Positions 46,829 to 63,378 of a stretch of DNA of 64,000 nucleotides are shown in pieces (the stretch's first letter is position 1; every line of letters starts with the position of its first letter). This DNA is from Paeniglutamicibacter kerguelensis (GTDB lineage: Bacteria; Actinomycetota; Actinomycetes; Actinomycetales; Micrococcaceae). The position numbers and the translations under genes are program-made. Location of the stretch: contig NZ_JAGIOF010000001.1 of NCBI RefSeq assembly GCF_017876535.1, positions 3,782,001 to 3,846,000 of the forward strand, written 5' to 3'. The notes beneath the pieces were generated by a model. It was not told the DNA's origin. It saw only the letters and a program-made list of their open reading frames with translations, and searched no databases.

Positions 46829-46832
46829 CGTC

Positions 46833-48080: not shown

Positions 48081-48103
48081 GATTGATGGTGATCCTTTCT
48101 CTG

Positions 48104-49072
48104 CTATTCGTTCGGCAACAGGGTGCCGACGTCCAACGGCTTGTCGATGATGCCGTACTTGTGCATCAGCTCCGCGGCCTTGGCAAGCTGGTCATTGTCG
48201 ATGTCGCTGGTGAATTTGGGCATTTCGATTTGCTTCACGACTTCGGCCGTGACCTTGGTGAAGGTCGGCACCAGCTTCACCAGTTCGTCCCTGTTGTCCT
48301 GCAATTCCTTCGCCGATTCGCCGATGGAAGCCTTGAAGGCCTTGATCGCCTCGGGGTTTTCCTTGGCGAATTTCTCCGTGGTGATCCAGCCGGCCACCGG
48401 CATGTCGGCCACCGGACCGTCGAAGAGGTTCCCGATCTTGGTGAACCCGTTGGTCTTGGCGCTCGCCTGGAAGGGCTCGACCTGCCAGATCGCGTCGGTG
48501 TTGCCGCTGTCCAGCGCCGCCTGCATGTCCGGGTACGGCATCTCGATGATCTCCACGTCGCCGCGCTGCAGGCCTGCTTCCTCCAGCAGGGAGGTGATGG
48601 CGATCGTGCCGATGTTCTGGAGGTTGTTCACCGCGAACTTCTTGCCCTTCAAGTCGGCAATGGACTCGATTCCCGAGTCCTTCTTGACGAAGATCCCGTG
48701 GTCTTCGACGCCGACGTCGTTTCCGGAGATGATGGTCAGCGGGATGCCCTTGTGTTTTGCAAGCAGGACTGAGGTGTAGTTCGTGTAGGTGACATCGATG
48801 TTCCCGGAGACCAGCGTCGGGATGGCAGTGGCTCCGCCCTGGGTTTGCACCAGTTCGACGTTGATGCCGTTCTTGGAAAAGACCCCCGCCTCGGATGCGT
48901 GGACCGCGGTCGCGGTGTGGACCAGCGGGAAGTACCCGACCTTTACCGTGGCGGCCCCGGGTTCGGCGGCGCCGGCCCCGGCATTGGTGCCCGCACAAGC
49001 GGTGGCGGTCAGGAGGAGAGCGAGGGCGCCTGCGCCCAGAAGTGCGCGACGGGTGGGAGTCGAAGAAAGCAT
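48104..49072 (-). CDS. ABC transporter substrate-binding protein, SsuA/NMT1 type
   Basis: 322 aa from ATG 49072 with AAAGGA upstream. Lipobox TATAC near residue 26 anchors it to the membrane surface. The NMT1/SsuA-like fold has VKVGYFPLVHTATAVHASEAG at the mature start and DAIWQVEPF. It is cotranscribed with the P450 23 bp downstream, but no permease or ATPase is in this operon. It probably feeds the aromatic acid to the importer encoded at 50221-52677. Confidence 0.87.
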   Translation of the reverse strand: MLSSTPTRRALLGAGALALLLTATACAGTNAGAGAAEPGAATVKVGYFPLVHTATAVHASEAGVFSKNGINVELVQTQGGATAIPTLVSGNIDVTYTNYTSVLLAKHKGIPLTIISGNDVGVEDHGIFVKKDSGIESIADLKGKKFAVNNLQNIGTIAITSLLEEAGLQRGDVEIIEMPYPDMQAALDSGNTDAIWQVEPFQASAKTNGFTKIGNLFDGPVADMPVAGWITTEKFAKENPEAIKAFKASIGESAKELQDNRDELVKLVPTFTKVTAEVVKQIEMPKFTSDIDNDQLAKAAELMHKYGIIDKPLDVGTLLPNE

Positions 49073-49121
49073 CGTAGTCCTTTCAGCACGGTCGGCGGGA
49101 AACCGCCGGATCACGCTCAAC

Positions 49122-49137
49122 TGTGATCCATGTCACA
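49122..49137. promoter_or_regulatory. perfect CRP/GlxR-type site
   Basis: TGTGATCCATGTCACA matches the TGTGA-N6-TCACA consensus of CRP/GlxR regulators exactly. It lies between the divergent P450 operon and the IclR gene and upstream of a TATGCT -10-like box (49139-49144). Carbon-catabolite control of aromatic uptake is the likely meaning. Confidence 0.8.
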
Positions 49138-49151
49138 CTATGCTGGAAGGT

Positions 49152-49174
49152 GTTTTTCCGTTCATAGGAAAAAC
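49152..49174. promoter_or_regulatory. inverted repeat, probable IclR-type operator
   Basis: GTTTTTCC (49152-49159) and GGAAAAAC (49167-49174) are exact inverted repeats 7 bp apart. They sit just downstream of the presumed start point of the IclR-type gene, fitting autorepression. Confidence 0.65.
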
Positions 49175-49193
49175 GAACCGGACAGGAGTGGAA

Positions 49194-50069
49194 GTGGCCA
49201 ATTCATCGGCGGGTCGATCCTCGTTGAGTCGAGCCATACAGCTGCTCGCGGCCTTCGACGTCGATGCCCTGTTCCTGACGGTGTCCCAGCTGGCGGCCCG
49301 ATCCGGCCTTTCGCTGACGACCACCCACCGGCTGCTCGGCGAACTGGTCGAGACCGGGTTGCTGGAACGGCAACCAGACAAGAGCTACCGCCTGGGCGTG
49401 CGGCTCTGGGAGCTGGCCGCCAAGACCCCGGGCGCCGTCGGCCTGCGCGAAATAGCCAGGCCGCACCTGAACGCCGTGCATGCCCGGGTCAGGCAGCATA
49501 CGCAGCTGGCTGTGCGCGACGGCCACGAGGTGATTTTCCTGGACCGAGTGTCGTTCCCGCAGGCGGTGGTGAACTACACGCTCATCGGTGGCAGATTGCC
49601 GTTGCATGCTTCAAGCAGCGGGCTGGTGCTGCTGGCGCATGCACCGACAGAGTTCCAGGAGGAAATGATCGATTCCGACTTGTTCGCCTACACACCGGAA
49701 ACCGTGCACATGCCCTCCGCGCTGCGCGGGCTCCTGCAAAATGTGCGGCGGGACGGTCACGCCGTGGGCAACGGCTACATCCACGCCGATGCGCGCGGCA
49801 TTGCGGTGCCCATTCGCGGGGTGAACCAGGACGTCATCGCGGCCTTGAGCGTGGTGGTGCCCAACGACGAGACCGCGGTAGCACCCGTCGTCACCCTGTT
49901 GGCCGCCGCATCCCGGGCCATTTCACGGGATTTGCTTGCCGCCTACACTGACGACGGGGAGGGTACCTTTCGGGTGCTGGTGCGCTCCAGCGAACGATCG
50001 ATGGCCGCCCTGCCCTCGATTCCCAAGATCACCCCGGAACCGACGGGCGTGCACCACAAGTCATCTTGA
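49194..50069 (+). CDS. IclR-family transcriptional regulator
   Basis: 291 aa from the GTG at 49194 with AGGAG six bases upstream; an ATG at 49140 would be longer but lies near the -10 box. The N-terminal winged helix reads LTVSQLAARSGLSLTTTHRLLGELVETGLLER. The IclR effector domain follows with LPLHASSSGLVLLAHAP and NGYIHADARGIAVPI. It is divergent from the binding protein/P450 operon and probably controls it with a benzoate-type ligand. Confidence 0.9.
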   Translation: MANSSAGRSSLSRAIQLLAAFDVDALFLTVSQLAARSGLSLTTTHRLLGELVETGLLERQPDKSYRLGVRLWELAAKTPGAVGLREIARPHLNAVHARVRQHTQLAVRDGHEVIFLDRVSFPQAVVNYTLIGGRLPLHASSSGLVLLAHAPTEFQEEMIDSDLFAYTPETVHMPSALRGLLQNVRRDGHAVGNGYIHADARGIAVPIRGVNQDVIAALSVVVPNDETAVAPVVTLLAAASRAISRDLLAAYTDDGEGTFRVLVRSSERSMAALPSIPKITPEPTGVHHKSS

Positions 50070-50220: not shown

Positions 50221-51090
50221 CTACTTGGCGACCATGGTGATGGCTTCCTCCGGGCGGTGCCCCTGCTTGGCCTTCTGGATTTCCGCGTACACGTGGTGGC
50301 GCAGCTCGGTGAAGCGCGGCAGCGACCGGGTTTCCAGCTGGTCGCGCTCGGCCGGCAGGTCGATCACGATGTCTTCCTGCACCACGGTGGGCGAGGAGGA
50401 GAGGATGATGACGCGCTCGCCCAGGTAGATGGACTCGTCGATGTCGTGGGTGACAAACAGGACGGTGACGCCGAGCTTCTTCCAGACGCTGCGGATCAGG
50501 TCCTCGAGGTCCGCGCGGGTCTGTGCGTCGACGGCGGCGAACGGCTCGTCCATCAACAGCACCTCGGGTTGGTAGGCGACGGCGCGGGCGATCGCCACGC
50601 GCTGCTGCATGCCGCCGGAGAGCTGCCACGGGTAGGACTTGGGCACGTGGGCCAGACCCACGGCCTCCAGCGCCTGCTCGACCAGCACCTTGCGCTCGTT
50701 CTTGGGCACGCCGGCGTTCTTCAGCGGCAGCTCGACGTTCTCGGCCACGCGGAGCCAGGGGAACAGCGAACGACCGTACTCCTGGAACACCACTGCCATC
50801 TTCTTCGGCGGGCCGGTGATGACCTGGCCGTCCAGGCGCACCTCGCCCTCGGTGGAAGCGAGCAGGCCGGCAATGCACTTGAGCAGTGTGGTCTTGCCGG
50901 AGCCCGAGGGGCCGACCAGGCAGACCAGCTCGCCGCGGCCCAGATCGAAGGTCAGGTTGCGGACGGCCTCGATGTCGCCGGCGTCCGTGCGGTAGACCTT
51001 CTTCAGGTTGCGCACCGACAGTAGTGCCTCGCCATCGGGAAGCGTGCGCCCGCCGGCGTGGGACGTTGGGTTTTCAGACTGCATTTTCAA
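50221..51090 (-). CDS. ABC transporter ATP-binding protein, SsuB/TauB type
   Basis: 289 aa. Walker A GPSGSGKTTLLKC, Q-loop VFQEYGRSLFPW, signature LSGGMQQRVAIARA, Walker B VLLMDEPFAAVD and H-loop VTHDIDE are all intact. Its start overlaps the second permease gene by 17 bp. It powers import of the substrate delivered by the binding proteins. It is the last gene of the long operon starting near 59.2 kb. Confidence 0.93.
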   Translation of the reverse strand: MKMQSENPTSHAGGRTLPDGEALLSVRNLKKVYRTDAGDIEAVRNLTFDLGRGELVCLVGPSGSGKTTLLKCIAGLLASTEGEVRLDGQVITGPPKKMAVVFQEYGRSLFPWLRVAENVELPLKNAGVPKNERKVLVEQALEAVGLAHVPKSYPWQLSGGMQQRVAIARAVAYQPEVLLMDEPFAAVDAQTRADLEDLIRSVWKKLGVTVLFVTHDIDESIYLGERVIILSSSPTVVQEDIVIDLPAERDQLETRSLPRFTELRHHVYAEIQKAKQGHRPEEAITMVAK

Positions 51091-51847
51091 CCTCTTTCAG
51101 GCCGTGGTACCAACGCAGGACGCGTCGTTCACACCATTGGAAGATAAAGGACAAGGCCACGCCGATCAGGCCCAGCACCACGATGCCTGACCACATTTCC
51201 GGCACGGCGAAGGAACGCTGGAATTGCACGATCGTGAACCCCAGCCCGGAGGACGAGGCAAACATTTCGGAGATCACCATGAGGATCAGGCCGATGGACA
51301 GGCATTGGCGCACCCCGGCCATGATGGTCGGGGTTGCCGAGGGCAGCACCTGGTAGCGGATACGGTTGAAGCCGGAGATCCCGTAGGAGCGGGAGGTTTC
51401 GTTTTGCACCGGGTCGATGGAGCGCACGCCCTCGATGGTGTTCAGCAGCACCGGCCAGATGCAGCCGGAAATGATCACCGCGATCTTCATGCCGTCGTTG
51501 ATGCCCACCAGCAGCATCAGCACCGGCACCAACACCGGCGGCGGCAGCGCCCGGAAGAACTCGAAAACCGGCTCGGTGAGCGCACGCATGGTGCGGTTCA
51601 ACCCGACGGCCAGGCCCAGGCCGATGCCCAGCACAATCGCGGCCAGCACGCCCACGACCAGGCGGATCACGCTCGGCAGCACGTCGGTGACCAGGCGCTC
51701 GCCCATCCACGTCTCGACGAACGTTTCGGCGAGCTGAGCCGGGGTCGGGACAAAGAAGTTCGCGGCACCGGAGGTGGCAATCCACCACCAGGCCAGCAGG
51801 ATCAGCGGCAGGCCCAGCAGGTAGCCGATGGATTTTAGCGTTTTCAT
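51074..51847 (-). CDS. ABC transporter permease, SsuC type (2)
   Basis: 257 aa with about six membrane segments. The EAA-type loop for ATPase contact lies in ARSYGISGFNRIRYQVLPSA-like sequence (SRSYGISGFNRIRYQVLPSA). It is coupled to the first permease gene by ATGA overlap. With the first permease it forms a heterodimeric channel. Confidence 0.9.
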   Translation of the reverse strand: MKTLKSIGYLLGLPLILLAWWWIATSGAANFFVPTPAQLAETFVETWMGERLVTDVLPSVIRLVVGVLAAIVLGIGLGLAVGLNRTMRALTEPVFEFFRALPPPVLVPVLMLLVGINDGMKIAVIISGCIWPVLLNTIEGVRSIDPVQNETSRSYGISGFNRIRYQVLPSATPTIMAGVRQCLSIGLILMVISEMFASSSGLGFTIVQFQRSFAVPEMWSGIVVLGLIGVALSFIFQWCERRVLRWYHGLKEVENAV

Positions 51848-52677
51848 GGCGTTGCCTCCCCACGGACGGACGGATGCCAGGACAGCACACGTTTTTCAAC
51901 AACACGTGTGACCACGTTGATCAGCACACCGAGGAACCCGGTTGCCAGAATCAGCGCATACATCCCGGCGATGGCGCCGCCGGACTGGGCCAGCGTGATC
52001 TCGTTGCCCAAGCCGGGGGAACCAATGAGCAGTTCGGCGGTGATGGCAAGGATCAGGGCCACCGATGCGGCAAGTCGGATGCCCGTCATCAGGTAGGGAA
52101 GCATGGTCGGGAAGACCACGTCCCGCACCCGCTGCCAGTGGGAGAACCCGTAGGAGCGGGCCGTCTGCATGGCGACGTTGTCCACGTCGGCAACGCCGTA
52201 CAGCACTTGGATCAGCACCTGCCAGAAGCAGGCGTAGATGATCAGCAACAGCGAGGACTCGATCTTCATCCCGAACAGCAGCACGGCCAACGGGATCAGC
52301 GCGACCGAGGGAATCGGGCGTAGGAACTCGATGGTGGAGTTCGTGAAGCGGCGCAGGAACGGCGACATGCCAATGAGCAATCCCAGCACCAGCGCAAGGA
52401 CCACGGCAATGGCAAGGCCTATGGCCCAGGCGGTCATGGTGTCACCTACGGCAACCCAGAAGGCGGTCAGGCCCAGATCCAAGGCCAGGGCCGCCAGGAC
52501 CTCGGAGGCCGGCGGCAGGTACTTCGCATTCACGATCCCCAGCACCGGCAGCAGTTCCCAGGCACCCAGGAACACCAGGACGCCGATGAGTCCAAGGACT
52601 GCCTTGGGTGTTTGGCGGGGCCTTGTCGTGGCGGCCTTGTGCCCGCCAACAACTTGTTCTTCAGCGATTTGGGTCAT
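51844..52677 (-). CDS. ABC transporter permease, SsuC type (1)
   Basis: 277 aa with six membrane segments after a polar N-terminus. The EAA-type loop is ARSYGFSHWQRVRDVVFPTM, and LLIGSPGLGNEITLAQSG follows. It partners the permease encoded just downstream. The 158-bp gap to the CoA-ligase gene contains no clear terminator. Confidence 0.9.
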   Translation of the reverse strand: MTQIAEEQVVGGHKAATTRPRQTPKAVLGLIGVLVFLGAWELLPVLGIVNAKYLPPASEVLAALALDLGLTAFWVAVGDTMTAWAIGLAIAVVLALVLGLLIGMSPFLRRFTNSTIEFLRPIPSVALIPLAVLLFGMKIESSLLLIIYACFWQVLIQVLYGVADVDNVAMQTARSYGFSHWQRVRDVVFPTMLPYLMTGIRLAASVALILAITAELLIGSPGLGNEITLAQSGGAIAGMYALILATGFLGVLINVVTRVVEKRVLSWHPSVRGEATP

Positions 52678-52835
52678 TGCGGAAGCAATTCGTCGGGGCT
52701 CGCTGGCGTGCGGATGCCCAACGCCGTCAGTGCACGTGAGGGTTTCTTTCGCATGTCGGGGTTGCCGTCCTTTGGTAGTGGTTGAGCTCTTCTTCGAAAC
52801 GCAGAGTGTGGTGTGCCGTCGGAGCTTTCGCTTCG

Positions 52836-54356
52836 TCAGTCGCCGAAGGACTTCCGCAGGTCGGCCTTGCGGATCTTTCCGCTGGCCGTTCGCGGAAGTT
52901 CCTCCACGATCCTGACGGTCTTGGGGATCTTGTAGCGGGCCAGACGTCCGTTGAGGTGTTCGATGACCTCTGATTCAGAAACTGCCATGCCCTCGCCCGC
53001 AACCACGACGGCGCGGGGAACCTCGCCCCATTTGGGATCCGGGATGCCGATGACGGCGACGGAGGCCACGGAGTTGAGTTCCATGATCGCCTGCTCGACT
53101 TCGGCCGGGTAGATGTTCTCGCCCCCGGAAATGATCATGTCCTTGAGCCTGTCCGAAATGAACAGGAACCCGTCTTCGTCCGTGTATCCCAGGTCCCCGG
53201 AACGGAACCAGGAGTCCTCGGCGAACGCCTCGGCGCTGGCCTCGGGCCGTTGCCAGTATTCATGAATGACATTGGGGCCGGAGATGAGGATTTCACCGAC
53301 CTCGCCCTGGCTCAAGGGTTGGCCGGTGGGACCGGCGATCTTGATGTCGGTGAAGAAGTGCGGCAGGCCGGCGGAGCCGATCTTTTCGCGCGAATGCTCA
53401 GCCTGCAGGGAAGTGGCGCCGGGTGCTGTTTCGGTCAGGCCGTAGCCGCCGGAGAACCCGAGCCCGCGCTTCTCATAGGCTTCGAGCACGCGCAGGGGAA
53501 CTGCCGACCCTCCGCAGGTGATCATGCGCAGCGAGGAGATGTCGGTGGTTGGCCAGGCAGGGTGCTCGGCGAGCAGCTGGAAGGTCGTCGGCACCCCGGA
53601 CAGTGTGGTGATCGAGTGTTTTTCAATCGCCGCAAGCACCGCGGCAGGCTCGAACCGGTCCTGCAGGACCAGAGTGCCGCCCTTGAGCAGCGTCGGCAGG
53701 GCTCCCATGCCGAGCGATGCCGCATGGAACATCGGGGCGATCATCAACGCGATGGAGCTGCTGGTGACGTCGTAGTCGACAAGGACGTTGATCGAGTTCC
53801 AGGTGAGGTTCCCGTGCGTGAGCACGGCGCCCTTGGGCTGGCCGGTGGTTCCCGAGGTGTAGAGGATGATTGCGGGGTCATCCTGCACCACCTCGACATC
53901 TTGGCGTGCGGGGCTTGCCGCCAGGAGCGCCGATTCGTACTCCGAACCCTCCCCCGGCACGTCGCTGACGACCAGAGTGTGCCCAACGGGGCTTCCCGGG
54001 AGCGAAGCCGTTGCCTGGGTTTCAAGTGACGCGGGGGCAATGAGTACAACGCTTCCCGAGTCGTTGAGTGCATAGTTCAATTCACGCGGCGCGAGCCGGG
54101 TGTTGAGTGGAACGAAGATGGCACCAATACTGCCGCATGCAAAGAGGGTTTCAAGGAATGCGGGGTGGTTGTTGCCGAGGTAGGCAACGCGCGACCCCTT
54201 TGTCACTCCCCGATCCGCCAAGGCGTTGGCCAACCTGTCGATACGCACGGCAAGTTCGGCGTAGCTCAGGGACACATCGCGGTCGACGATGGCCACGCGC
54301 TCCCGCGATTTGATGCGGCGCTTGTGGATCCAACTACCAAGCCCTTGGTTAAGCAT
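52836..54356 (-). CDS. phdA: acyl-CoA ligase, phenylpropanoid (PhdA/CouL-like)
   Basis: 506 aa from ATG 54356 with AAAGG upstream. ANL-superfamily motifs are YTSGTTGQPKGAVLTH (AMP-binding A3), GYGLTETAPG, SGDLGYTDEDGF and RLKDMIISGGENIYP, and the catalytic Lys in PRTASGKIRK. It would activate a cinnamic or phenylpropionic acid to its CoA thioester. The context with dehydrogenase, hydratase, SDR and amidohydrolase genes matches Corynebacterium phd and Rhodococcus cou clusters, which is the basis for the name. Confidence 0.85.
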   Translation of the reverse strand: MLNQGLGSWIHKRRIKSRERVAIVDRDVSLSYAELAVRIDRLANALADRGVTKGSRVAYLGNNHPAFLETLFACGSIGAIFVPLNTRLAPRELNYALNDSGSVVLIAPASLETQATASLPGSPVGHTLVVSDVPGEGSEYESALLAASPARQDVEVVQDDPAIILYTSGTTGQPKGAVLTHGNLTWNSINVLVDYDVTSSSIALMIAPMFHAASLGMGALPTLLKGGTLVLQDRFEPAAVLAAIEKHSITTLSGVPTTFQLLAEHPAWPTTDISSLRMITCGGSAVPLRVLEAYEKRGLGFSGGYGLTETAPGATSLQAEHSREKIGSAGLPHFFTDIKIAGPTGQPLSQGEVGEILISGPNVIHEYWQRPEASAEAFAEDSWFRSGDLGYTDEDGFLFISDRLKDMIISGGENIYPAEVEQAIMELNSVASVAVIGIPDPKWGEVPRAVVVAGEGMAVSESEVIEHLNGRLARYKIPKTVRIVEELPRTASGKIRKADLRKSFGD

Positions 54357-54414
54357 CGGTGCCTTTCTTGTGCGCCGGCCCGCGGGCCGGCGCAACGGTT
54401 TCTAGCGTTCTTGA

Positions 54415-55404
54415 CTACTTGATTGTCAGGCCCGCGACGTCGGGGGCCTTGGAGAGGAATGCGAGCTTGGCCGCGAGCTGGCCGAGCGCATCAAGCTGGG
54501 TTGCCGGAACGGCTCCGTCCCAGGTTTCCATCTTGAGGTTCTTGGCAACCGTGGCATCCATCTTCATGAAGTCCGGAAGCATTGCCTTCGCGCCGGCCTG
54601 GTCGGCCTCGGCAGCGGCCAGGGTCTCGGTCATTGCCGCCTTGAAGTCGGCGACGACCTCGGGCTTTTCCTGGGCGAACTTGCCGCTGGTGAAGCTCACC
54701 ATGGTCGGAAGGCCCGGAATTGCCTTCTGGTTCGGGTAGCCAACGAGCTTGTTGTCCTTGTTGGCAAGGGCCTTGGAGAGGAAAGGTTCGGGAGCCCATA
54801 TGGCATCAACATTCTTGCGTTCAAGTTGCGCCTCCATGTCCGGGAAGGGCATTTCGCTGAACTTCAGTGCCGCCGGATCGGCACCATCGATTGCCGCCGA
54901 CTCCTTGATTGTCAGGTCACCCTGTGTCTTGAGCGCATTGACGGTTGTGGTTTTGCCGGCGAGGTCAGCGAAGGTATTGATGCCTGAATCGGCGCGGACA
55001 ACCACACCGTTGATGTCATCACCTTCAGCCTTGGAGTTCGAGTAGCCGGTGACGATTTTCATGTCCAGCCCCTTGTCCACGGCGGTGAGCACTGAGAGCG
55101 GGTTGCCTACGGCAAAGTTCAAGTCGCCGGTGGAAACCGCCGGAAGCATCGCTGCCCCGGCGGAACTGGTGGTGAATTCAACGTCAAGGCCGTGCTTTTT
55201 AAAGATTCCCTTGTCGACTCCGTACTTCACCGCGACCGAAGGGGCGATGGGAAGGACGCCAACGACCACTTTGGTCAGCCCGGCCGAACCGGATGCGCCC
55301 GTTTCCGCTGCGGCCTGTCCGGACAGGGATCCACCGCCGCAGCCCGTCAGTGCGAATGCGGCAATTGTTGCCCCGGTGATAATCGCGGTGAATTGCTTCT
55401 TCAT
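54415..55404 (-). CDS. ABC transporter substrate-binding protein, SsuA/NMT1 type
   Basis: 329 aa from ATG 55404 with AGGAG upstream. Lipobox ALTGC near residue 22. The mature domain starts VVVGVLPIAPSVAVKYGVDKG; the pocket segment MPFPDMEAQLERKNVDAIWAPEPF parallels MPYPDMQAALDSGNTDAIWQVEPF-type sequence in the first binding protein. It is in the middle of the catabolic operon, 58 bp before the ligase gene, and is the natural partner for the adjacent permeases, presumably bringing in phenylpropanoids. Confidence 0.87.
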   Translation of the reverse strand: MKKQFTAIITGATIAAFALTGCGGGSLSGQAAAETGASGSAGLTKVVVGVLPIAPSVAVKYGVDKGIFKKHGLDVEFTTSSAGAAMLPAVSTGDLNFAVGNPLSVLTAVDKGLDMKIVTGYSNSKAEGDDINGVVVRADSGINTFADLAGKTTTVNALKTQGDLTIKESAAIDGADPAALKFSEMPFPDMEAQLERKNVDAIWAPEPFLSKALANKDNKLVGYPNQKAIPGLPTMVSFTSGKFAQEKPEVVADFKAAMTETLAAAEADQAGAKAMLPDFMKMDATVAKNLKMETWDGAVPATQLDALGQLAAKLAFLSKAPDVAGLTIK

Positions 55405-55640
55405 GATTTCTCCTGAGTGGTTTTGATGCGGCACCGGAGTCATTGCCCCATTCGCCAAGAACTTGTGACCGACGCCACAGGTTTCAATCTAATTGCAATC
55501 ATTGAAAAAATCAATGGTTCGATTTTTACTGCTTTTAGGACTTGGTGCGGCCGATCCTTGAACCGCCCCACAGGAGAGGCAAAAGGGCACACCAACGTCC
55601 GGGGTCGCCCTCTCGGGGCTCCCCGGACGCTGGCCGCAAT

Positions 55641-56096
55641 TTAGGCGTAGAAGCGGTAGATTCCGCGCGAGACGACCGATGGCTTGGTCGCGCCCTCGAC
55701 CTCGACGACCTGGTCGACGGCGATCTGGTAGCCGCCCCTGACTTCCTCAACCTCGGCGATGGTGGCCTTCATGCGGATGTTGGCGCCCACCGGAACCGGG
55801 GCGGGGAAGCGGACCTTCTCCAGTCCGTAGTTAACGCGGGTGGAGACCCCGGTGACATCGAAGAGTTCGGACCAGAAGGCGATCTGCAGGCTCAGCGAAA
55901 GGTAGCCGTGGGCGATAGGGCCGCCAAAGGGGCCGTCCTTGGCCTTTTCCGGGTCTGTGTGGATCCACTGGTGGTCATCGGTCGCGTCGGCGAAGGTGTT
56001 GATCTGGTCCTGGGTGACCAGGCGGTATTCGCTGTAGCCCAGGTCGGTGCCGGCTGCGTCTGCGAGCTGTTCGTAGGAAAGAACTGTCTGGCCCAT
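55641..56096 (-). CDS. phdE: MaoC-like enoyl-CoA hydratase (PhdE-like)
   Basis: 151 aa, single hot-dog domain. The catalytic Asp/His segment is FADATDDHQWIHTDPEKA, with GGPIAHGYLSLSL as the second hallmark. It would hydrate a cinnamoyl-CoA double bond to the beta-hydroxy thioester. It is cotranscribed with the acyl-CoA dehydrogenase 63 bp upstream. Confidence 0.87.
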   Translation of the reverse strand: MGQTVLSYEQLADAAGTDLGYSEYRLVTQDQINTFADATDDHQWIHTDPEKAKDGPFGGPIAHGYLSLSLQIAFWSELFDVTGVSTRVNYGLEKVRFPAPVPVGANIRMKATIAEVEEVRGGYQIAVDQVVEVEGATKPSVVSRGIYRFYA

Positions 56097-56159
56097 GGTG
56101 GGACCCTCCTGTGAGTTGTTGGTGCTGGAAAGTGATGAATGAAGTCTTGTGCCTGCCGG

Positions 56160-57347
56160 TTAGCGGAAGGCGCCGATGCCCGTCACGGCCCGGCCGACGA
56201 TCAACGCATTGATCTCGTGGGTTCCCTCGTAGGAATAGATCGCCTCGGCATCCGCGTGGAACCGGGCGACGTCGTAGTCGAGCACGATGCCGTTGCCGCC
56301 GCAGATCTCTCGCGCAAGCGCCACGGTCTCACGCAGCATCCTTGCGGTGAACATCTTGGCCATGGCCGAACTCTCGTCCTTGTACAGGCCCTGGTCTTGC
56401 TGCTCGGTGAGCCGCACGACCATGCCAAGGCAGGCCGTGACGTTCGAAAGCATCTGCGCGAGCTTTTCTTGGATCAGTTGGAAGGACGCCAGGGGCTTGC
56501 CGAATTGCTTGCGTTCCGAGACGTACTTCAACGCTGCCTCGTAGGCCCCGGCGGCGGCGCCCGTGGCGATCCAGGCGACGTCCGAACGCATGTTGCGCAG
56601 GCAGGCCGCGACGTCCGCGAACGAGTTGATCCGCGCCAGGCGCGCGGAGTCAGGGACCCGCACGTCCGCCAGGTCGATGTCCGCGTTCTGCATGATCCGC
56701 AGGCTGGCCTTGCGCTCGATCTTGGACAACGTCACGCCCGGTGCATCGGCCGGCACCAGGAAGCACTTGACCTGGCCGTCGGCCGTGTCGCGGGCGAAGA
56801 CCGCAAGCACGTCGGCCTGGGCGGCACCGCCGATCCAGCGCTTGGACCCGTTGATGACCCAGGAGCCGCCCCGCTCGTCGTCCTCGAAGGACGCCGAGGT
56901 CTCGAGGCCGCCGGCAATGTCCGAGCCGTGCTCGGGCTCGGTCAGCGCGAACACGCCCCTGAGATCGTAGGAGCTGATTTTCGGGTCGAGTGCGGCCGCC
57001 TGCTCCTCGCTGCCGCCCAGGTTCACCGTGGTCCTGAAGAGCCCGGACTGCGCGTTGTAGAACGTGGCGACCGAGGCGTCGATGCGGGCCAGTTCGAAGT
57101 TCCTGAAGCCGGCAAAGAGTCCACGGACCTTTTCCCCGGCGGCCAGGACCTCGGCCGGTTCCATCAGGTCCAGCCCGACGAGCGGGCCGGTGATCTGTTC
57201 GGGGAATTCCCCGCGCTCCCAGTACTCGTTCACGACCGGGCGGACATGCTCGTCCAACGCCGTCCGCAAACGCAGCAGCGCCGCGCGTTCGGCGTCGCTG
57301 AGCAGCCCGGCGAAGCCGAGCTGGTCGCTGGGATAGAAGGCGCTCAC
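56160..57347 (-). CDS. phdC: acyl-CoA dehydrogenase, glutaryl-CoA-dehydrogenase-like (PhdC-like)
   Basis: 395 aa from a GTG whose bases overlap the preceding stop (GTGA). FAD/acyl motifs are FALTEPEHGSDIAGGLET and NGSKRWIGGAAQAD. The catalytic base Glu lies in YEGTHEINALIVGRAVTGIGAF, as in glutaryl-CoA dehydrogenases. In a phd-type pathway it would introduce the double bond into phenylpropionyl-CoA, letting saturated side chains join the cinnamate route. The translational coupling shows it belongs with the amidohydrolase gene. Confidence 0.87.
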   Translation of the reverse strand: MSAFYPSDQLGFAGLLSDAERAALLRLRTALDEHVRPVVNEYWERGEFPEQITGPLVGLDLMEPAEVLAAGEKVRGLFAGFRNFELARIDASVATFYNAQSGLFRTTVNLGGSEEQAAALDPKISSYDLRGVFALTEPEHGSDIAGGLETSASFEDDERGGSWVINGSKRWIGGAAQADVLAVFARDTADGQVKCFLVPADAPGVTLSKIERKASLRIMQNADIDLADVRVPDSARLARINSFADVAACLRNMRSDVAWIATGAAAGAYEAALKYVSERKQFGKPLASFQLIQEKLAQMLSNVTACLGMVVRLTEQQDQGLYKDESSAMAKMFTARMLRETVALAREICGGNGIVLDYDVARFHADAEAIYSYEGTHEINALIVGRAVTGIGAFR

Positions 57348-58237
57348 TGTGCCGTCAATCCCAGGAGACCCGCGGCATTGTCCTTGAGGATCAGCGGGCG
57401 AACCTCGTCCTTCAGCGGCAGCTCGGCGAAGGCGCCGAGCCACTTTTCGGGGGTGATCAGCGGGTAGTCGGTGCCGAAGAGCACCTTGCGGGAGAGCACG
57501 TTGTTGCTCAGCTTCACCAGCGAGGCGGGGAAGTACTTCGGGCTCCAACCCGAGAGGTCGATGAAGACGTTGGCCTTGTGCGTGGCGATCGAGTTCGCCT
57601 CGTCCTGCCACGGCACCGAGGGGTGCGCCATGATGACCACCAGGCCCGGGAAGTCCGCCGCGACGTCGTCAAGCAACAACGGGTTCGAGTAGCGCAGCTT
57701 GATGCCGCGCCCGCCGGGAAGCCCCGCGCCCATGCCGTTCTGCCCGGTGTGGAAGATGCACGGCAGGCCGAGTTCCTCCAGCGCCGCCCACAGCGGGTAA
57801 AACTCCTCGCTTGAGGGGTCGAAGCCCTGGAGCGAGGGGTGGAACTTGAAGCCGCGCACGCCGAGGTCGTTGGCCTGGCGGCGCGCCTCGGTGATCGCCT
57901 CGGGACCTGTGCGCGGGTCGACGGAGCCGAAGGGGATCAACACGTCGTTGTTGCGCGCGGCCCCGGCGACCAGGTCGTCGATCGAGTTCGGCGCATGTCC
58001 CAGTGCGGTGCGGGCGTCGACGGTGAACAGCACGGCCGCCATCTTCGCCTCGCGGTAGACCTCTGCGATCCGGTCCACCGACGGGGTGCGCTCGGTGGAC
58101 TTGAAGTAGGCGGCCGAGGCCTCGAAGAGTTCCTCCGGCATGGCCTTGTGACCGCAGTCGTCGACCTCGAGGTGCACGTGCATGTCGATGGCAGTGATGG
58201 CCGCGAGGTCTATCCGCGATTCGTACTTGATGCCCAT
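57344..58237 (-). CDS. phdB: amidohydrolase-2 family hydrolase, probable beta-keto-CoA hydrolase (PhdB/CouO-like)
   Basis: 297 aa from ATG 58237. Metal ligands are in AIDMHVHLEV, GFKFHPSLQG, CIFHTGQNG, IMAHPSVPW and the Asp in LFGTDYPL, a complete amidohydrolase-2 set. In the cou pathway a member of this family splits the aromatic beta-ketoacyl-CoA into the benzoic acid and acetyl-CoA; the same job is inferred here from the neighbours. It lies 13 bp after the SDR stop and is coupled to the dehydrogenase. Confidence 0.85.
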   Translation of the reverse strand: MGIKYESRIDLAAITAIDMHVHLEVDDCGHKAMPEELFEASAAYFKSTERTPSVDRIAEVYREAKMAAVLFTVDARTALGHAPNSIDDLVAGAARNNDVLIPFGSVDPRTGPEAITEARRQANDLGVRGFKFHPSLQGFDPSSEEFYPLWAALEELGLPCIFHTGQNGMGAGLPGGRGIKLRYSNPLLLDDVAADFPGLVVIMAHPSVPWQDEANSIATHKANVFIDLSGWSPKYFPASLVKLSNNVLSRKVLFGTDYPLITPEKWLGAFAELPLKDEVRPLILKDNAAGLLGLTAQ

Positions 58238-58250
58238 GATTCCGGCTTTT

Positions 58251-59177
58251 CTACTTGGCTGCCGGTTCGGGCTGCAGCTCGGCGGGAAGCTCCGGGAAGT
58301 TCTCGCCGACCGACTGCAGATTCCCGGCAAACGGGAAGCGTTCCTGCAAGGTTGCGTAGTCCCAGCCACCGTCGTTGAACTCCGACTCGATGGCTTCCGG
58401 GTGGCTCCAGAGCTGGAGGCGGTCCCCGCCCGCACCGATGGCCTGGCCGTTGACGTTGCCTGCGGCATCCGAGGCGAGGAAGGCGATCAGGCCGGCAACG
58501 TCGTCTGAGGTGCCGAATCCGAGCGTCTTGCGGAAGAAGTCGGGCATTGCCTCGCCGCGCTCTTCGGCCTCGACGGCCTTGGCGAAGTACGGAACGGTCT
58601 TGGTCATGGCGGTTGCCGCAACGGGGATGACCGCATTGACGGTGACGCCCGCGCGCTTCATTTCCAGGGCCCAGGTGCGCACCATGCCCACGATGCCGGA
58701 CTTTGCGGCGGCGTAGTTGGTCTGGCCGAAGTTGCCGCGCTGGCCGGTGGGCGAGCCGATGGCGATGATGCGCCCGGCGATGCCGTTTTCCTTGAAGTAG
58801 GCGTAGGCCTCGCGGACGCAGGTGAAGGTTCCGCGCAGGTGCACGTTGATGACCAGGTCGAAGTCCTCGTCGGTCATCTTCAGGATGGACTTGTCGCGCA
58901 GCACGCCGGCGTTGGTGACCAGGATGTCGAGGCGGCCGAAGTTCTCAACTGCCGCGGCAACCAATGCCATGGCGGTCTCGGTGGAACCCACCGGGGCGAC
59001 GACCGCGACGGCCTGGCCGCCTGCTGCGGTGATCGACTCGACGGCCTCGGCGGCGACGCCGGCGTCAACGTCGTTGATGACCACGGCGGCGCCCTGGCGG
59101 GCGAGTTCCTGCGCGTAGCTCAGGCCCAGGCCGCGTCCGCTGCCGGTGACAATTGCTACTTTTCCTTCAAGTGACAC
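58251..59177 (-). CDS. phdD: SDR beta-hydroxyacyl-CoA dehydrogenase (PhdD-like)
   Basis: 308 aa from a GTG with GGGAG upstream. Cofactor motif TGSGRGLGLSYA, NAGV, catalytic Ser in IGSPTGQ and YAAAKSG. It is longer than simple FabG, with a C-terminal extension of about 50 residues, as in multifunctional-protein-type 3-hydroxyacyl-CoA dehydrogenases. It would oxidise the beta-hydroxy thioester to the beta-keto thioester. First gene of the long minus-strand operon, divergent from the MarR gene. Confidence 0.87.
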   Translation of the reverse strand: MSLEGKVAIVTGSGRGLGLSYAQELARQGAAVVINDVDAGVAAEAVESITAAGGQAVAVVAPVGSTETAMALVAAAVENFGRLDILVTNAGVLRDKSILKMTDEDFDLVINVHLRGTFTCVREAYAYFKENGIAGRIIAIGSPTGQRGNFGQTNYAAAKSGIVGMVRTWALEMKRAGVTVNAVIPVAATAMTKTVPYFAKAVEAEERGEAMPDFFRKTLGFGTSDDVAGLIAFLASDAAGNVNGQAIGAGGDRLQLWSHPEAIESEFNDGGWDYATLQERFPFAGNLQSVGENFPELPAELQPEPAAK

Positions 59178-59246
59178 GTTTACTCCCTCATAGGTTGCTG
59201 TTGCCCCCGCGGCCTTGCACATGGGAACCTTGCTTAGATACATAAC

Positions 59247-59280
59247 AACTTAAACTCTTGAAAAAGTCAACGATTAAGTT
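59247..59280. promoter_or_regulatory. inverted repeat over the phd promoter, probable MarR operator
   Basis: AACTTAA (59247-59253) and TTAAGTT (59274-59280) are exact inverted repeats. A minus-strand TTGACT -35-like element (59270-59265) lies between them. The site separates the divergent SDR and MarR genes, so the repressor could block both. Confidence 0.6.
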
Positions 59281-59307
59281 TCTCACCAATATCCAGGAGA
59301 TGCCTTC

Positions 59308-59775
59308 ATGCCACCCAAGTCGAGCACCATAGCCAGCGGGATTGAACGGTTCCTGGACTGCGAGCTGGCAGGGGAAATCGAGTTCCTGGCCGCACGCACG
59401 CGCTCCCTGGGTTCGGCGCGCGCCAACGGGCTGCTGGAACCGCTGGGCCTGAAGGTCCGCTCGTATTCCGTCCTGTCGCTGGCTTGCAGCGACCTCTCCC
59501 CCACCCAGCGCGAGCTGGCGGAGTTCCTGTCACTGGATCCCAGCCAGATCGTGCCGCTGGTCGACCAGCTCGAAAAGGGCGGTTTTGTCCAGCGCCATGC
59601 CGATCCCAACGACCGGCGCTCAAAGGTCATCAGCGCAACGCCGGAGGGACACAAGCTCTACAAGAAGGCACGCCTGGAAACGGCCAAGGGCGAATCGATG
59701 TCGATGGAGCGCCTAAACAAGGCCGAGCAGGACACCCTGCGCGACCTGCTTTCGCGGATCGCCTTTACGGCCTGA
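59308..59775 (+). CDS. phdR: MarR-family regulator (PhdR/CouR-like)
   Basis: 155 aa with AGGAG upstream. The winged helix shows SPTQRELAEFLSLDPSQIVPLVDQLEKGGFVQR and the wing DPNDRRSKVISATPEG. PhdR and CouR are MarR repressors released by hydroxycinnamoyl-CoA; the same logic is inferred because this gene is divergent from the pathway operon. It is convergent with the IclR gene, 3 bp apart. Confidence 0.87.
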   Translation: MPPKSSTIASGIERFLDCELAGEIEFLAARTRSLGSARANGLLEPLGLKVRSYSVLSLACSDLSPTQRELAEFLSLDPSQIVPLVDQLEKGGFVQRHADPNDRRSKVISATPEGHKLYKKARLETAKGESMSMERLNKAEQDTLRDLLSRIAFTA

Positions 59776-59778
59776 GCC

Positions 59779-60576
59779 TCAGCGGCTCGCCGCGAGTGCT
59801 TCCTGCACCTGGCAGGCGGCTCGCTGGAGCGCGGGGAGCACGGCCTGCGCAGCTTCCTCGGCACTGACCGGGGCCTGCTGGCGCACGCTCATCGAAACGT
59901 TCATGGCCGCAGCGATGCTGCCGTCCGCGTTGAACACCGGCACCGCGACCGAACGCAGCCCGATCTCCAGCTCCTGGTCGACGATTGCGTAGCCCCGGGC
60001 GCGGATCTTCTCCAGCTCCGCACGCAGGTCGGCGACGTTGTCGATTCCCAGGCCAGTGGCCGAATGCACACCCTCCGCCAGCAGGACGTCAATCACCACG
60101 GGGGCCTGGAAGGCCAGCAGCACCCGCCCCATGGAGGTGTTCACGGCAGGGAACCTGGTGCCGACCGAGATCCCCACTCGCATGATCGAGCGGGTGTGCA
60201 CGCGTGCGATGTAGAGGATGTCGCGCCCGTCAAGGACCGAGGCCGAGGCCGACTCGTGCACCGCGGTGGAGAGGTCCTCAAGCACCGGCTCCATCAGCTG
60301 CGGCAGCGTGGCGCTGGAAAGGTAGGAGTAGCCCAGCTGCAGGACCTTGCTGGTGAGCTCGAAGAACTTCCCGTCCCCGCGCACATACCCGAGTTCCTGC
60401 AGGGTGAGCAGGAACCGGCGGGCCGTGGCACGCGACAGGCCGGTGCGCTTAGCAACCTCGCTGAGCGTCATCGAGGGATGCTCGGCGTCGAACGAGGTGA
60501 TCACCTCGAGGCCGCGGGCCAGAGACTGGACGGACGTCGATCCGCCCGCGGCGGTGGTTCCTGCGTCCTGGCTCAT
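59779..60576 (-). CDS. pcaR: IclR-family regulator PcaR
   Basis: 265 aa from ATG 60576 with AGGAG upstream. The winged helix reads MTLSEVAKRTGLSRATARRFLLTLQELGYV. The effector domain has FPAVNTSMGRVLLAF and ELEIGLRSVAVPVFNADG, typical of the PcaR/PobR/PcaU branch that senses protocatechuate-pathway intermediates. It lies downstream of pcaJ on the same strand but behind a terminator-like hairpin. Confidence 0.9.
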   Translation of the reverse strand: MSQDAGTTAAGGSTSVQSLARGLEVITSFDAEHPSMTLSEVAKRTGLSRATARRFLLTLQELGYVRGDGKFFELTSKVLQLGYSYLSSATLPQLMEPVLEDLSTAVHESASASVLDGRDILYIARVHTRSIMRVGISVGTRFPAVNTSMGRVLLAFQAPVVIDVLLAEGVHSATGLGIDNVADLRAELEKIRARGYAIVDQELEIGLRSVAVPVFNADGSIAAAMNVSMSVRQQAPVSAEEAAQAVLPALQRAACQVQEALAASR

Positions 60577-60636
60577 GGCGTGCGGCTCCTGGGTGATCGA
60601 TGGTGAAAGTGCCCCGCAAAGCTTCGGCGGGAAGGC

Positions 60637-60675
60637 AAAAGAACGGGGACAGGGTGTTGACTGCCCCCATTCTTT
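60637..60675 (-). terminator. terminator of the pca operon
   Basis: AAAAGAACGGGGACAG (60637-60652) pairs with CTGCCCCCATTCTTT (60661-60675) with two G-U/A-C imperfections. Read on the minus strand the stem ends in TTCTTTT. It separates pcaJ from pcaR. Confidence 0.75.
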
Positions 60676-60687
60676 CAAACTTACCGG

Positions 60688-61359
60688 CTACGCCCCGCGC
60701 ACCAACGCCACGGGCAGGCGCCCGGCGAGCTCCTCGAAGGTGATCCCGTGGACGGAACGCACCGCCACCCTCGAATCCTCCAGCTCGAAGATCGCCGACT
60801 CGGTGTAGATGCGCGAGACGCAGCCCAGCCCAGTGACCGGGTAGGACAGGGTCTCGACCAGCTTGGATGCGCCGTCCTTGGAGAACAGGGACATCATGAC
60901 CCAGGTGGCCTTGGCGCCGATCGCCAGGTCCATGGCACCGCCGACGGCCGGGATGGCGCCGGGCGCGCCGGTGTGCCAATTGGCAAGGTCGCCGGAGCCC
61001 GACACCTGGAACGCGCCGAGCACGCAGACATCCAGGTGTCCGCCGCGCATCATCGCGAAGGAGTCCGCGTGGTGGAAGTAGCTGGCGCCGGGCAACTCGG
61101 TGACCGGGATCTTGCCGGCGTTGATCAGGTCCCCGTCGATGTCTTCGCCCGTGGCGACCGGGCCCATGCCCAGCATGCCGTTTTCGGTGTGCAGGGTGAC
61201 GCCCTGTTCAGCGGTGAGGAAGTTGGAGACGTTGGTCGGCTGGCCGATGCCCAGGTTCACGAACGCGCCGGCGGGGATGTCGGCGGCGACCATCGCGGCA
61301 AGCTCGTCTCGGGTCAGCGGCGCTTCGGTGGTGGTGAAGGTGGATGTATCGGTGCTCAT
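60688..61359 (-). CDS. pcaJ: 3-oxoadipate CoA-transferase subunit B
   Basis: 223 aa. The catalytic Glu lies in HTENGMLGMGPV; GGHLDVCVLGAFQVSGSGDLANW is family-typical. With PcaI it activates 3-oxoadipate with succinyl-CoA. Its ATG overlaps the pcaI stop by one base (TAATG), so translation is coupled. Confidence 0.93.
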   Translation of the reverse strand: MSTDTSTFTTTEAPLTRDELAAMVAADIPAGAFVNLGIGQPTNVSNFLTAEQGVTLHTENGMLGMGPVATGEDIDGDLINAGKIPVTELPGASYFHHADSFAMMRGGHLDVCVLGAFQVSGSGDLANWHTGAPGAIPAVGGAMDLAIGAKATWVMMSLFSKDGASKLVETLSYPVTGLGCVSRIYTESAIFELEDSRVAVRSVHGITFEELAGRLPVALVRGA

Positions 61360-62030
61360 TAGTTGTTGCCTCCGAGTGCGACGAGGGTGTTGACGTAGAT
61401 GCCCGGGGTCACCACGACCTCCGGATCGATGCCGCCGACGGGAACGATCTCATCGACCTGCACGATGGCCTGCTTGGCCGCTGCCGCCATGATGGGGCCG
61501 AAATTGCGGGCGGTCTTGCGGTAGACAAGGTTGCCGTGGGTGTCCGCGCGCAGGGCCTTGACCAGGGCAAAGTCGGCGTGGATGGGGCTTTCCAGGACGT
61601 AGCCGCGCCCGTCGATCACGCGGGTTTCCTTGCCCTCGGCCAGCAGCGTGCCGTAGCCGGTGGGCGTGAAGAAGCCGCCGATGCCTGCGCCCGCGGCGCG
61701 GATGCGCTCGGCCAGGTTGCCCTGCGGGACCAGTTCCAGCTCGATTTCCCCGGCGCGGTAGGCCGTATCGAAGTGCCAGGAGTCGGACTGGCGCGGGAAG
61801 GAGCAGATGACCTTTTTGACGCGGCGTTCCTTGATCAGCAGCGCGAGGCCGGCGTCGGCCTGGCCGGCGTTGTTGTTCACGACCGTGAGGTCGGTGGCGC
61901 CGTTGGCCAGCAGTGCGTCGATGAGTTCCATCGGCTGGCCGGCGTTGCCGAACCCGCCGATCAGGACGGTCGCGCCGTCGTGGATGTTGGCCACTGCCTC
62001 TGCGGCCGTGGCGGCGATGCGTGGTGCCAT
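61359..62030 (-). CDS. pcaI: 3-oxoadipate CoA-transferase subunit A
   Basis: 223 aa. LIGGFGNAGQPMELIDALL is the subunit A signature and GVYVNTLVALGGNN closes the protein. It forms the heterotetrameric transferase with PcaJ. The 73-bp gap to pcaF contains a perfect hairpin. Confidence 0.93.
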   Translation of the reverse strand: MAPRIAATAAEAVANIHDGATVLIGGFGNAGQPMELIDALLANGATDLTVVNNNAGQADAGLALLIKERRVKKVICSFPRQSDSWHFDTAYRAGEIELELVPQGNLAERIRAAGAGIGGFFTPTGYGTLLAEGKETRVIDGRGYVLESPIHADFALVKALRADTHGNLVYRKTARNFGPIMAAAAKQAIVQVDEIVPVGGIDPEVVVTPGIYVNTLVALGGNN

Positions 62031-62075
62031 GGTGGTTCTCTCCTAAATTCCTGAAATCTTTTCCTGAGTGCGAAT

Positions 62076-62100
62076 GACCGAGGGTTCAAATCCCTCGGTC
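62076..62100. repeat. perfect hairpin resembling a tRNA T-arm, between pcaF and pcaI
   Basis: GACCGAGGG (62076-62084) pairs with CCCTCGGTC (62092-62100) around TTCAAAT. The loop and stem (GAGGG-TTCAAAT-CCCTC) have exactly the size and sequence type of a tRNA T-arm, followed by GGTCCAT like an acceptor strand. No other cloverleaf arm is found upstream. It could be a tRNA-end remnant or an intra-operon attenuator. Confidence 0.6.
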
Positions 62101-62103
62101 CAT

Positions 62104-63315: not shown

Positions 63316-63344
63316 GGTGTGGGGACCGACTTTCCGACCAAAAT

Positions 63345-63378
63345 GTTCGCATTGTGAACGCTTGTTCACTAATTGAAC
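63345..63378. promoter_or_regulatory. tandem PcaR/PobR-type IclR boxes
   Basis: GTTCGCATTGTGAAC (63345-63359) and GTTCACTAATTGAAC (63364-63378) are two 15-bp inverted repeats of the form GTTC-N7-GAAC. They have the length and edges of the PobR/PcaU-type IclR recognition sequence. They lie 30-63 bp upstream of the pcaF start codon. Confidence 0.8.

Follow-up and report, generated by a model that had tools for sequence, protein, structure and literature searches.

A phd/cou-type phenylpropanoid gene cluster of Paeniglutamicibacter kerguelensis with an ABC importer in the place of the MFS carrier and a translocator probably common to several binding proteins

Introduction

In actinobacteria, the import of lignin-derived aromatic acids is generally attributed to carriers of the major facilitator superfamily (MFS). 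A gene cluster of Paeniglutamicibacter kerguelensis combines genes resembling those of the phd and cou phenylpropanoid pathways with genes for an ATP-binding cassette (ABC) importer. It lies at positions 50221 to 59775 of the whole 64,000-nt stretch analysed here, referred to as the window (assembly GCF_017876535.1, contig NZ_JAGIOF010000001.1, positions 3,782,001 to 3,846,000). Its composition raises the question of what the importer brings in, and whether it serves only the pathway beside it. A first-pass annotation had described a phd/cou-type enzyme set with an SsuABC-like importer in the same operon, as a combination that may be undescribed. The analysis presented here indicates that the cluster is probably a PhdR-controlled unit for hydroxycinnamate uptake and catabolism, with an ABC importer in lieu of the MFS carrier and a membrane translocator that is probably common to pathway-specific substrate-binding proteins (SBPs).

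Gene content of the cluster

All genes named by the first-pass annotation at 50221–59775 were found, intact, where it had placed them, as judged by Pfam assignments. Start codons were read from the sequence. The genes and associated elements are as follows.

59308..59775, + strand: MarR-family regulator of the PhdR/CouR type, divergent (Pfam MarR; best PDB matches 5cyv/3fm5)
59256..59272: degenerate CouR-like box, 3 mismatches, in the intergenic region between the MarR and short-chain dehydrogenase/reductase (SDR) genes
58251..59177, − strand: SDR dehydrogenase, PhdB-like (adh_short; neighbour conserved in relatives)
57344..58237, − strand: amidohydrolase, PhdC/CouO-like side-chain hydrolase (Amidohydro_2)
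56160..57347, − strand: acyl-coenzyme A (CoA) dehydrogenase, PhdD-like (Pfam)
55641..56096, − strand: MaoC enoyl-CoA hydratase, PhdE-like (Pfam)
55587..55637, − strand: terminator-like hairpin 3' of the MaoC gene (−40 kcal/mol, z −4.1)
55500..55516: exact CouR box CATTGA-N5-TCAATG, upstream of SBP1 (0 mismatches)
54415..55404, − strand: SBP1, lipoprotein SBP of the NMT1/NitT-TauT family (PF09084, lipobox)
52836..54356, − strand: CoA ligase, PhdA/CouL-like (AMP-binding; PDB matches 8weu/8wev)
52674..52754, − strand: short open reading frame (ORF), likely deletion remnant of a further binding protein, SBP3 (similarity to SBP3 ends)
51844..52677, − strand: ABC permease 1, TM1 (BPD_transp_1)
51074..51847, − strand: ABC permease 2, TM2 (BPD_transp_1)
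50221..51084, − strand: ABC ATPase (ABC_tran; catalytic motifs intact)

The host belongs to the Micrococcaceae and has a 4.8-Mb genome (completeness 99.8%). The same ten genes recur in 11 of the 80 loci of named relatives at 60–98% identity (81–98% for the permeases and ATPase of the importer); hence, the cluster is not a chance assembly. These 80 PhdC loci were the top-ranking ones among at least 558, and some of them also appear in the genomes of the family survey described below, so the two sets are not independent. The closest named relatives of the amidohydrolase are from Paeniglutamicibacter.

Pathway enzymes and regulator

The amidohydrolase shares 77–78% identity over 98% with Corynebacterium glutamicum protein P0057, and its closer relatives P0013 and P0017 bear the source name 4-hydroxyphenyl-beta-ketoacyl-CoA hydrolase. 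The best PDB matches of the CoA ligase are 8weu and 8wev (E about 1e-164), the latter named feruloyl-CoA synthetase. The designations PhdB to PhdE used here follow the gene order, enzyme classes and enzyme steps of the C. glutamicum pathway.

The MarR protein is matched best in the PDB by 5cyv and 3fm5 (E 1.2e-24; next match 2.1e-9), which the accessible text of PMC4737184 describes as CouR from Rhodococcus jostii RHA1, either bound to p-coumaroyl-CoA or free. The same text describes two CouR arginines as essential for DNA binding, and a CouR box (cATTGA-5 bp-TCAATg) that overlaps the −35 element in the cou promoters. When the proteins were aligned, Arg38 of CouR was kept in the window protein and Arg36 was replaced by Lys.

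The exact CouR box at 55500–55516 lies about 100 bp before SBP1 and is the sole exact copy in the 4.8-Mb genome; none occurred in 30 Markov sequences of window length. At up to one mismatch the genome holds 25 sites, including the exact one, and the backwards pattern gives 1. On account of these 25 sites, use of the box as a general regulon finder was dropped, and evidence was drawn from the exact site and conserved positions only. A sequence of window length is expected to contain 14 sites with three mismatches by chance, and the box before the SDR gene (59256–59272) therefore rests on its position. With at most two mismatches, a box precedes SBP1 in all 11 named loci having SBP1 and the ABC genes. 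The family survey includes five loci of this kind from the same genus, and all five have such a box.

The cluster includes a PhdC/CouO-type amidohydrolase, an SDR, an acyl-CoA dehydrogenase, a MaoC hydratase and an aryl-CoA ligase, together with a predicted CouR/PhdR-type MarR repressor and a CouR box. Its phd/cou identity, proposed by the first-pass annotation, is strongly supported by these sequence comparisons, namely the 78% identical amidohydrolase, the CouR-like regulator, the feruloyl-CoA-synthetase-like ligase and the exact box.

A second PhdC copy, 90% identical and separate from other phd genes, is present in Arthrobacter sp. C2 (L016, 10001–10894), near genes for a cytochrome P450 (P450), a ferredoxin-like protein and a reductase. 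The full cluster of the same record is L013.

Transcription units

By eye, possible promoters with the box placed over the −35 element can be read before SBP1 (TTGATT-17 bp-TAGATT) and before the SDR gene (TTGACT-17 bp-TGTTAT). A scan for consensus sigma-70 promoters found no site, and the promoter positions rest on reading of the sequence; a simple terminator scan missed the hairpin between MaoC and SBP1. Since that hairpin (−40 kcal/mol, z −4.1) and the exact CouR box lie between the MaoC and SBP1 genes, transcription of the whole cluster as one operon was rejected, and the cluster most likely consists of two adjacent transcription units, with the ligase and importer in the second. The single operon of the earlier description thus holds for the ligase with the importer but not for the SDR, amidohydrolase, acyl-CoA dehydrogenase and MaoC genes.

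The importer

The ATPase has intact Walker A, signature and Walker B motifs, both permeases have intact EAA-like loops, and the lipobox of the SBP is intact as well. With an NMT1-family SBP, BPD_transp_1 permeases and an ABC_tran ATPase, the system is an ABC importer of the NitT/TauT type. The NCBIfam cut-offs for SsuABC and TauABC were all missed (e.g. SsuA_fam 97.8 bits against 163.5, TauC 119.8 against 342), and none of the taurine, Ssu or nitrate equivalog models of NCBIfam reached its cut-off with the importer proteins. Assignment of the SBP, permeases and ATPase as a sulfonate importer was rejected on these grounds. The label SsuABC-like is therefore correct at superfamily level but not beyond it, as the permeases come from two distinct genes and every Ssu and Tau model scored under its cut-off. 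The best matches of TM1 are 65–86% identical in 48 other genomes of the family, and its best paralogue in the same genome is 33% identical.

No single-protein permease of the PhdT/CouT type lies at the locus; when the phd-linked MFS of Arthrobacter-type loci was used as the query against the genome, the nearest protein was 47% identical. As the PhdT/CouT-type carrier is missing from the locus, the cluster is a phd variant with a different uptake part.

Occurrence of ABC and MFS genes at phd loci of relatives

Gene order was compared across 149 Micrococcaceae genomes, drawn evenly, of which 67 have PhdC at E 1e-60 or better; the loci of these were fetched. The set used for comparison comprises 64 loci with at least three of the four core genes at the PhdC locus, window included; second PhdC copies were left out and G031, G057 and G114, with two of four core genes, were dropped. 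Identity limits (45% for locus parts, 50% for SBP1, 60% for TM1 and 48% for SBP2, the binding protein of the neighbouring operon described below) were chosen after the lists were known. Loci cut by contig ends (L115, L118, L136, L143, L146, L151, L153 and L156) were kept, and some loci counted as having none of these genes or SBP1 alone may therefore be incomplete.

A full ABC set is present in 22 of the 64 loci (20 with SBP1), among them that of G029 at only 52–64% identity. Eighteen have an MFS gene (4 with SBP1), 12 have SBP1 alone, and 12 have none of these. ABC and MFS genes do not occur together at any of the 64 loci (hypergeometric 1e-4, kinship ignored). Among the 80 named loci, 13 have a full ABC set at 45% or more (11 with SBP1), 53 an MFS gene (2 with SBP1), 4 SBP1 alone and 10 none, and again no locus has both. 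All six loci named Paeniglutamicibacter have the ABC genes.

In most MFS loci the MFS gene (PF07690) is situated between the MaoC and ligase genes, which is the slot of SBP1 here. The position of the ABC genes varies by genus, either downstream as here or upstream of the MarR gene. The shared slot, and the lack of any locus with both full ABC and MFS (0/64 and 0/80), bear out the earlier suggestion that the importer stands in the place of the MFS carrier, and the ABC–phd combination proves to be widespread in the Micrococcaceae (22/64 loci).

Distances of TM1, TM2 and the ATPase correlate with those of PhdC and the SDR (Mantel r 0.66–0.74; 24 loci and the window), which fits joint descent of importer and core. 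Outside the family, 20 loci were chosen for score and diversity from 65 non-Micrococcaceae genomes with PhdC, four of them cut by contig ends; ABC genes adjoin phd in two of the 20 (L215, 58–64% identity; L210, 39–53%).

CouR boxes with at most two mismatches were counted in the survey loci with the window left out, and compared with a permuted-palindrome control. They precede the SDR gene in 43 of 68 loci (control mean 0.7, max 8), the CoA ligase gene in 19 of 57 (0.4, max 3), SBP1 in 6 of 45 (0.3, max 4), TM1 in 1 of 22 (0.3, max 4) and the MFS gene in 1 of 18 (0.05, max 3). Outside the two genera that supply the six SBP1 cases, SBP1 in most genera follows the MaoC gene and is without a recognisable box of its own.

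Two further loci deserve mention. In Zafaria cholistanensis (L019, 988–8352) a run just upstream of phd includes genes for a P450 (44% identical to the CYP199-type P450 of the window, described below), an SBP, Dak1/Dak2, TM1-TM2-ATPase and a Fer2-domain protein; the Dak1/Dak2 (dihydroxyacetone-kinase-like) gene is an odd guest in it. A contig labelled as an Acidobacteria metagenome-assembled genome (L018) carries a phd–ABC locus with 71–92% identity to the window genes, and most likely comes from a member of the Micrococcaceae and was binned wrongly.

Co-occurrence of SBP1 and the translocator

SBP1 (at least 50% identity) was found in 46 of the 149 genomes. All 46 are among the 67 PhdC genomes, and SBP1 was absent from the 82 genomes that lack PhdC. 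In 39 of the 46 it is no more than 5 kb away from core genes, and in 38 it adjoins the MaoC gene (window included). TM1 (at least 60%) is present in 49 genomes, namely all 46 with SBP1 and G034, G113 and G120, which carry an SBP3-TM1-TM2-ATPase unit. Presence and absence of SBP1 and TM1 co-vary within genera g1, g7, g23 and g31. In all 12 genomes with SBP1 only and all 4 with SBP1 plus MFS, TM1 is present elsewhere in the genome.

The SBP2–CYP199 operon and SBP3

The importer genes are followed in the window by a second set that includes an SBP and no permease (45243–50069):

49224..50069, + strand: IclR regulator, divergent from SBP2-CYP199 (Pfam; start picked by coding score)
48104..49072, − strand: SBP2, NMT1-family binding protein of the P450 operon, without a permease of its own
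46833..48080, − strand: CYP199-family P450 (CYP199A4, 4dnz, E 5e-141)
46520-46828, − strand: 2Fe-2S ferredoxin (Pfam)
45243-46523, − strand: ferredoxin reductase (Pfam)

The P450 belongs to the CYP199 family (E 5e-141 to 4dnz). CYP199A4 acts on 4-methoxy substrates, and 45243–50069 is likely to be a demethylase unit for 4-methoxy aromatic acids.

Sixteen of the 149 genomes encode a relative of SBP2 (at least 48%), and all 16 also have TM1 (hypergeometric 3e-9). Ten of the SBP2 loci lie away from TM1. All ten were fetched, and each includes SBP2 together with IclR and CYP199-like genes (arranged IclR-CYP-SBP2 in L259); no TM1/TM2-like permease was found within 15 kb at any of them. An ABC ATPase at 33% is present in L250. 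In L256–L258 a further SBP, 37–38% identical to SBP3, is located beside the SBP2–CYP199 unit, with a second P450 in L256 and L257 (43–44% identical to the window CYP199), which suggests that the pairing of an SBP with a P450 has been repeated.

The surroundings of TM1 in other genomes also include aromatic catabolic genes. Relatives of PobA, PcaH and PcaG are found around remote TM1 in L230, L232, L233 and L237 (4 of 8 g4 genomes) and PcaG/PcaH in L245, and SBP2, a CYP199-like gene and IclR surround TM1 in L238, L240, L242, L244 and L167. Grouped by genus, TM1/TM2/ATP lie near PobA/PcaHG in these four g4 genomes, near PcaHG in the g5 genome, and near SBP2-CYP199 in 4 of 6 g22 genomes and one g8 genome. 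None of these gene sets is complete around TM1 in the stretches fetched for L231, L234–L236, L239, L241, L243 and L246–L249.

In congeners (L009, L011–L015) an extra SBP, SBP3, is encoded between the ligase and TM1 genes. In the window this place is taken by the ORF at 52674–52754, of 26 codons, which is similar to the N- and C-terminal ends of five SBP3 proteins when these ends are joined; the similarity was reached by 0 to 1.3% of shuffles. Its stop codon overlaps the TM1 start, as that of SBP3 does in L011. The ORF is likely, from this resemblance, to be a deletion remnant of SBP3.

Adjacent catabolic genes

On the other side of the cluster, genes of the beta-ketoadipate branch follow the MarR gene:

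59779..63369, − strand: IclR regulator, CoA-transferase pair and thiolase (Pfam, NCBIfam models)

The best models for the CoA-transferase pair and thiolase (60688–63369) are PcaI/PcaJ and 3-oxoadipyl-CoA thiolase. The pcaI_scoA family of NCBIfam is above its cut-off, pcaJ_scoB is slightly under (241.8 against 243.6), and the thiolase scores under the cut-off of its best model. A relative of 4-hydroxybenzoate hydroxylase and a VanA_C-domain protein are encoded 6–11 kb past the window end (G000:C1:3852146-3856420). The former is 89% identical to a congener's 4-hydroxybenzoate 3-monooxygenase, itself above the subfamily cut-off and below the equivalog cut-off. These two proteins could serve the onward funnelling of hydroxybenzoates derived from ferulate and coumarate.

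Proposed function and alternatives

From sequence identity, gene order, box occurrence and co-occurrence, we infer ligand, enzyme steps, transport, repression and sharing as follows. The cluster would import and degrade p-hydroxycinnamates (the p-coumarate, ferulate and caffeate class). SBP1 at the cell surface would bind the acid and pass it to the TM1/TM2/ATPase translocator, and the CoA ligase encoded in the importer's operon would form the CoA thioester. The thioester would be hydrated by MaoC and oxidised by the SDR, after which the amidohydrolase would free a hydroxybenzoate; the acyl-CoA dehydrogenase would be the entry point for saturated phenylpropionates. Hydroxybenzoates may then pass through PobA/VanA to the nearby beta-ketoadipate genes. 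A CouR-like repressor would occupy both promoters until displaced by the thioester, which would make the first product the inducer of uptake and activation.

The translocator is most likely a hub, with SBP2 from the CYP199 operon and SBP3, encoded beside the translocator, predicted to dock to the same permease pair; the SBP3-carrying translocator lies near pob/pca genes in some relatives. For the Micrococcaceae more widely, we favour, with some reserve, a single ABC translocator for aromatic acids to which each catabolic operon supplies its own lipoprotein SBP and regulator. In this scheme SBP1 would belong to phd and its CouR-type repressor, SBP2 to the IclR-controlled CYP199 demethylase, and SBP3 to the translocator, in some genera near pob/pca. 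SBPs would have been gained, lost or moved with their pathways and the translocator kept, and the choice of MFS or ABC hub would be a recurrent evolutionary switch at phd. The genome data that fit sharing are the co-occurrence and the SBPs without a nearby permease.

It is rather unlikely that the importer is dedicated to SBP1 and hydroxycinnamates, with SBP2 and SBP3 using other permeases or not being transport proteins, so that no hub exists. The full ABC set beside the phd core in 22 of 64 loci, its position behind a CouR box in this genome and the other NitT/TauT-like permeases encoded there (best 33% to TM1) are all compatible with a dedicated importer. However, SBP2 occurs only with TM1 (16/16 genomes, TM1 being in 49/149), 10 of the 16 lack a TM1/TM2-like permease beside it, and TM1/TM2/ATP lie in some genera near PobA/PcaHG or SBP2-CYP199, whereas SBP1 is mostly with phd.

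We consider it unlikely that the importer, while specific for aromatic acids, has 3-phenylpropionates, methoxylated cinnamates or hydroxybenzoates rather than a hydroxycinnamate as its main ligand. The acyl-CoA dehydrogenase for saturated side chains, the adjoining CYP199 system and the location of some translocators near pob/pca genes would suit such ligands, but SBP1 is directly beside the MaoC gene in 38 of 46 genomes, and in the window it shares one gene run and the CouR box with the feruloyl-CoA-synthetase-like ligase.

That the importer is a bystander for a sulfur source, nitrogen source or vitamin precursor, as the ligands of the nearest solved SBPs might suggest, is highly improbable given that SBP1 is found in 0 of 82 family genomes without PhdC, that the importer genes lie within the cluster or adjoin it in several layouts (two of the 20 non-Micrococcaceae loci among them), that a CouR box precedes SBP1 and that no taurine, Ssu or nitrate equivalog cut-off was reached.

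Several observations weigh against a PhdR-controlled hydroxycinnamate importer with a common translocator. Most solved relatives of SBP1 bind taurine, sulfonate, nitrate or pyrimidine, and no solved relative is named as an aromatic-acid binder. The box at the SDR promoter is degenerate in this genus, and boxes before SBP1 and TM1 are rare in other genera, all six SBP1 cases coming from two genera. The co-occurrence tests ignore phylogeny and general richness in aromatic pathways, which may confound them, and have no unrelated permease as a control. The idea that MFS and ABC strictly exclude each other within a genome was rejected, since of the 18 genomes with MFS at the locus, seven have TM1 elsewhere, six of these with SBP1 too. 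Finally, nine PhdC genomes, including congeners G091 and G138, have neither a locus MFS nor TM1 at 60%; hence, the importer is not essential to the pathway. Of these nine, G029 has a TM1 at 53%, and the loci of three others are cut by contig ends.

If the proposed hydroxycinnamate unit is correct, control of an ABC importer by the CoA thioester of the pathway itself would let the cell scavenge substrates present at low concentration, and would offer a CoA-thioester-responsive promoter–importer pair for lignin bioconversion strains and sensors. If the translocator is a hub, the ligands of orphan NMT1-type SBPs would be predictable from neighbouring enzymes, and loss of one permease would silence several pathways.

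Comparison with known systems

PhdT of C. glutamicum and the couT product of RHA1 are both of the MFS class. The C. glutamicum phd set comprises phdA as the ligase gene, phdR, phdT, cg0344-47 and the promoter PphdB, and PhdT is its phenylpropanoid permease, according to the accessible parts of PMC10576375 and PMC7593625 (for PhdT, PMC10576375). The cluster in the window resembles this set in its 78% identical amidohydrolase, ligase, MarR repressor and enzyme classes, and differs in having an ABC importer with the ligase in place of uptake by PhdT. The cou system of RHA1 likewise has a CouR-type repressor, a CouR box over the −35 region and the amidohydrolase CouO at the last step, and couT has its own promoter (PMC4737184, accessible text). 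Unlike in the window, no ABC importer is mentioned for RHA1 cou there, and the word transporter is absent from the main text. In the open-access literature searched, mainly titles and abstracts, no report was found of an ABC importer in a phd/cou cluster or of a shared aromatic translocator in Micrococcaceae; within that literature the combination appears undescribed, as the first-pass annotation had suggested it may be.

Several SBPs acting on one membrane pair would have a parallel in TphC/TpiAB of Comamonas, which belongs to the tripartite tricarboxylate family and is not an ABC system. The CouP SBP of Rhodopseudomonas palustris is of the branched-chain amino acid type. SBP1, whose only matches are to NMT1 and related families, is set apart from CouP by that family assignment. 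CouPSTU and TarPQM of R. palustris, of which CouPSTU is an ABC system, are described as SBP-dependent systems for coumarate and ferulate uptake with genes beside catabolic genes (PMC3610893, accessible parts), and the cluster in the window resembles them in that uptake genes for an SBP-dependent system adjoin catabolic genes. PatDABC of R. jostii RHA1, an ABC phthalate importer, differs in its substrates, which are given as phthalate and monoalkyl phthalates with no phenylpropanoid link in the accessible parts of PMC10973024, the comparison being by description only. Like the importer proposed here, it is an actinobacterial ABC system that uses an SBP and takes up aromatic acids.

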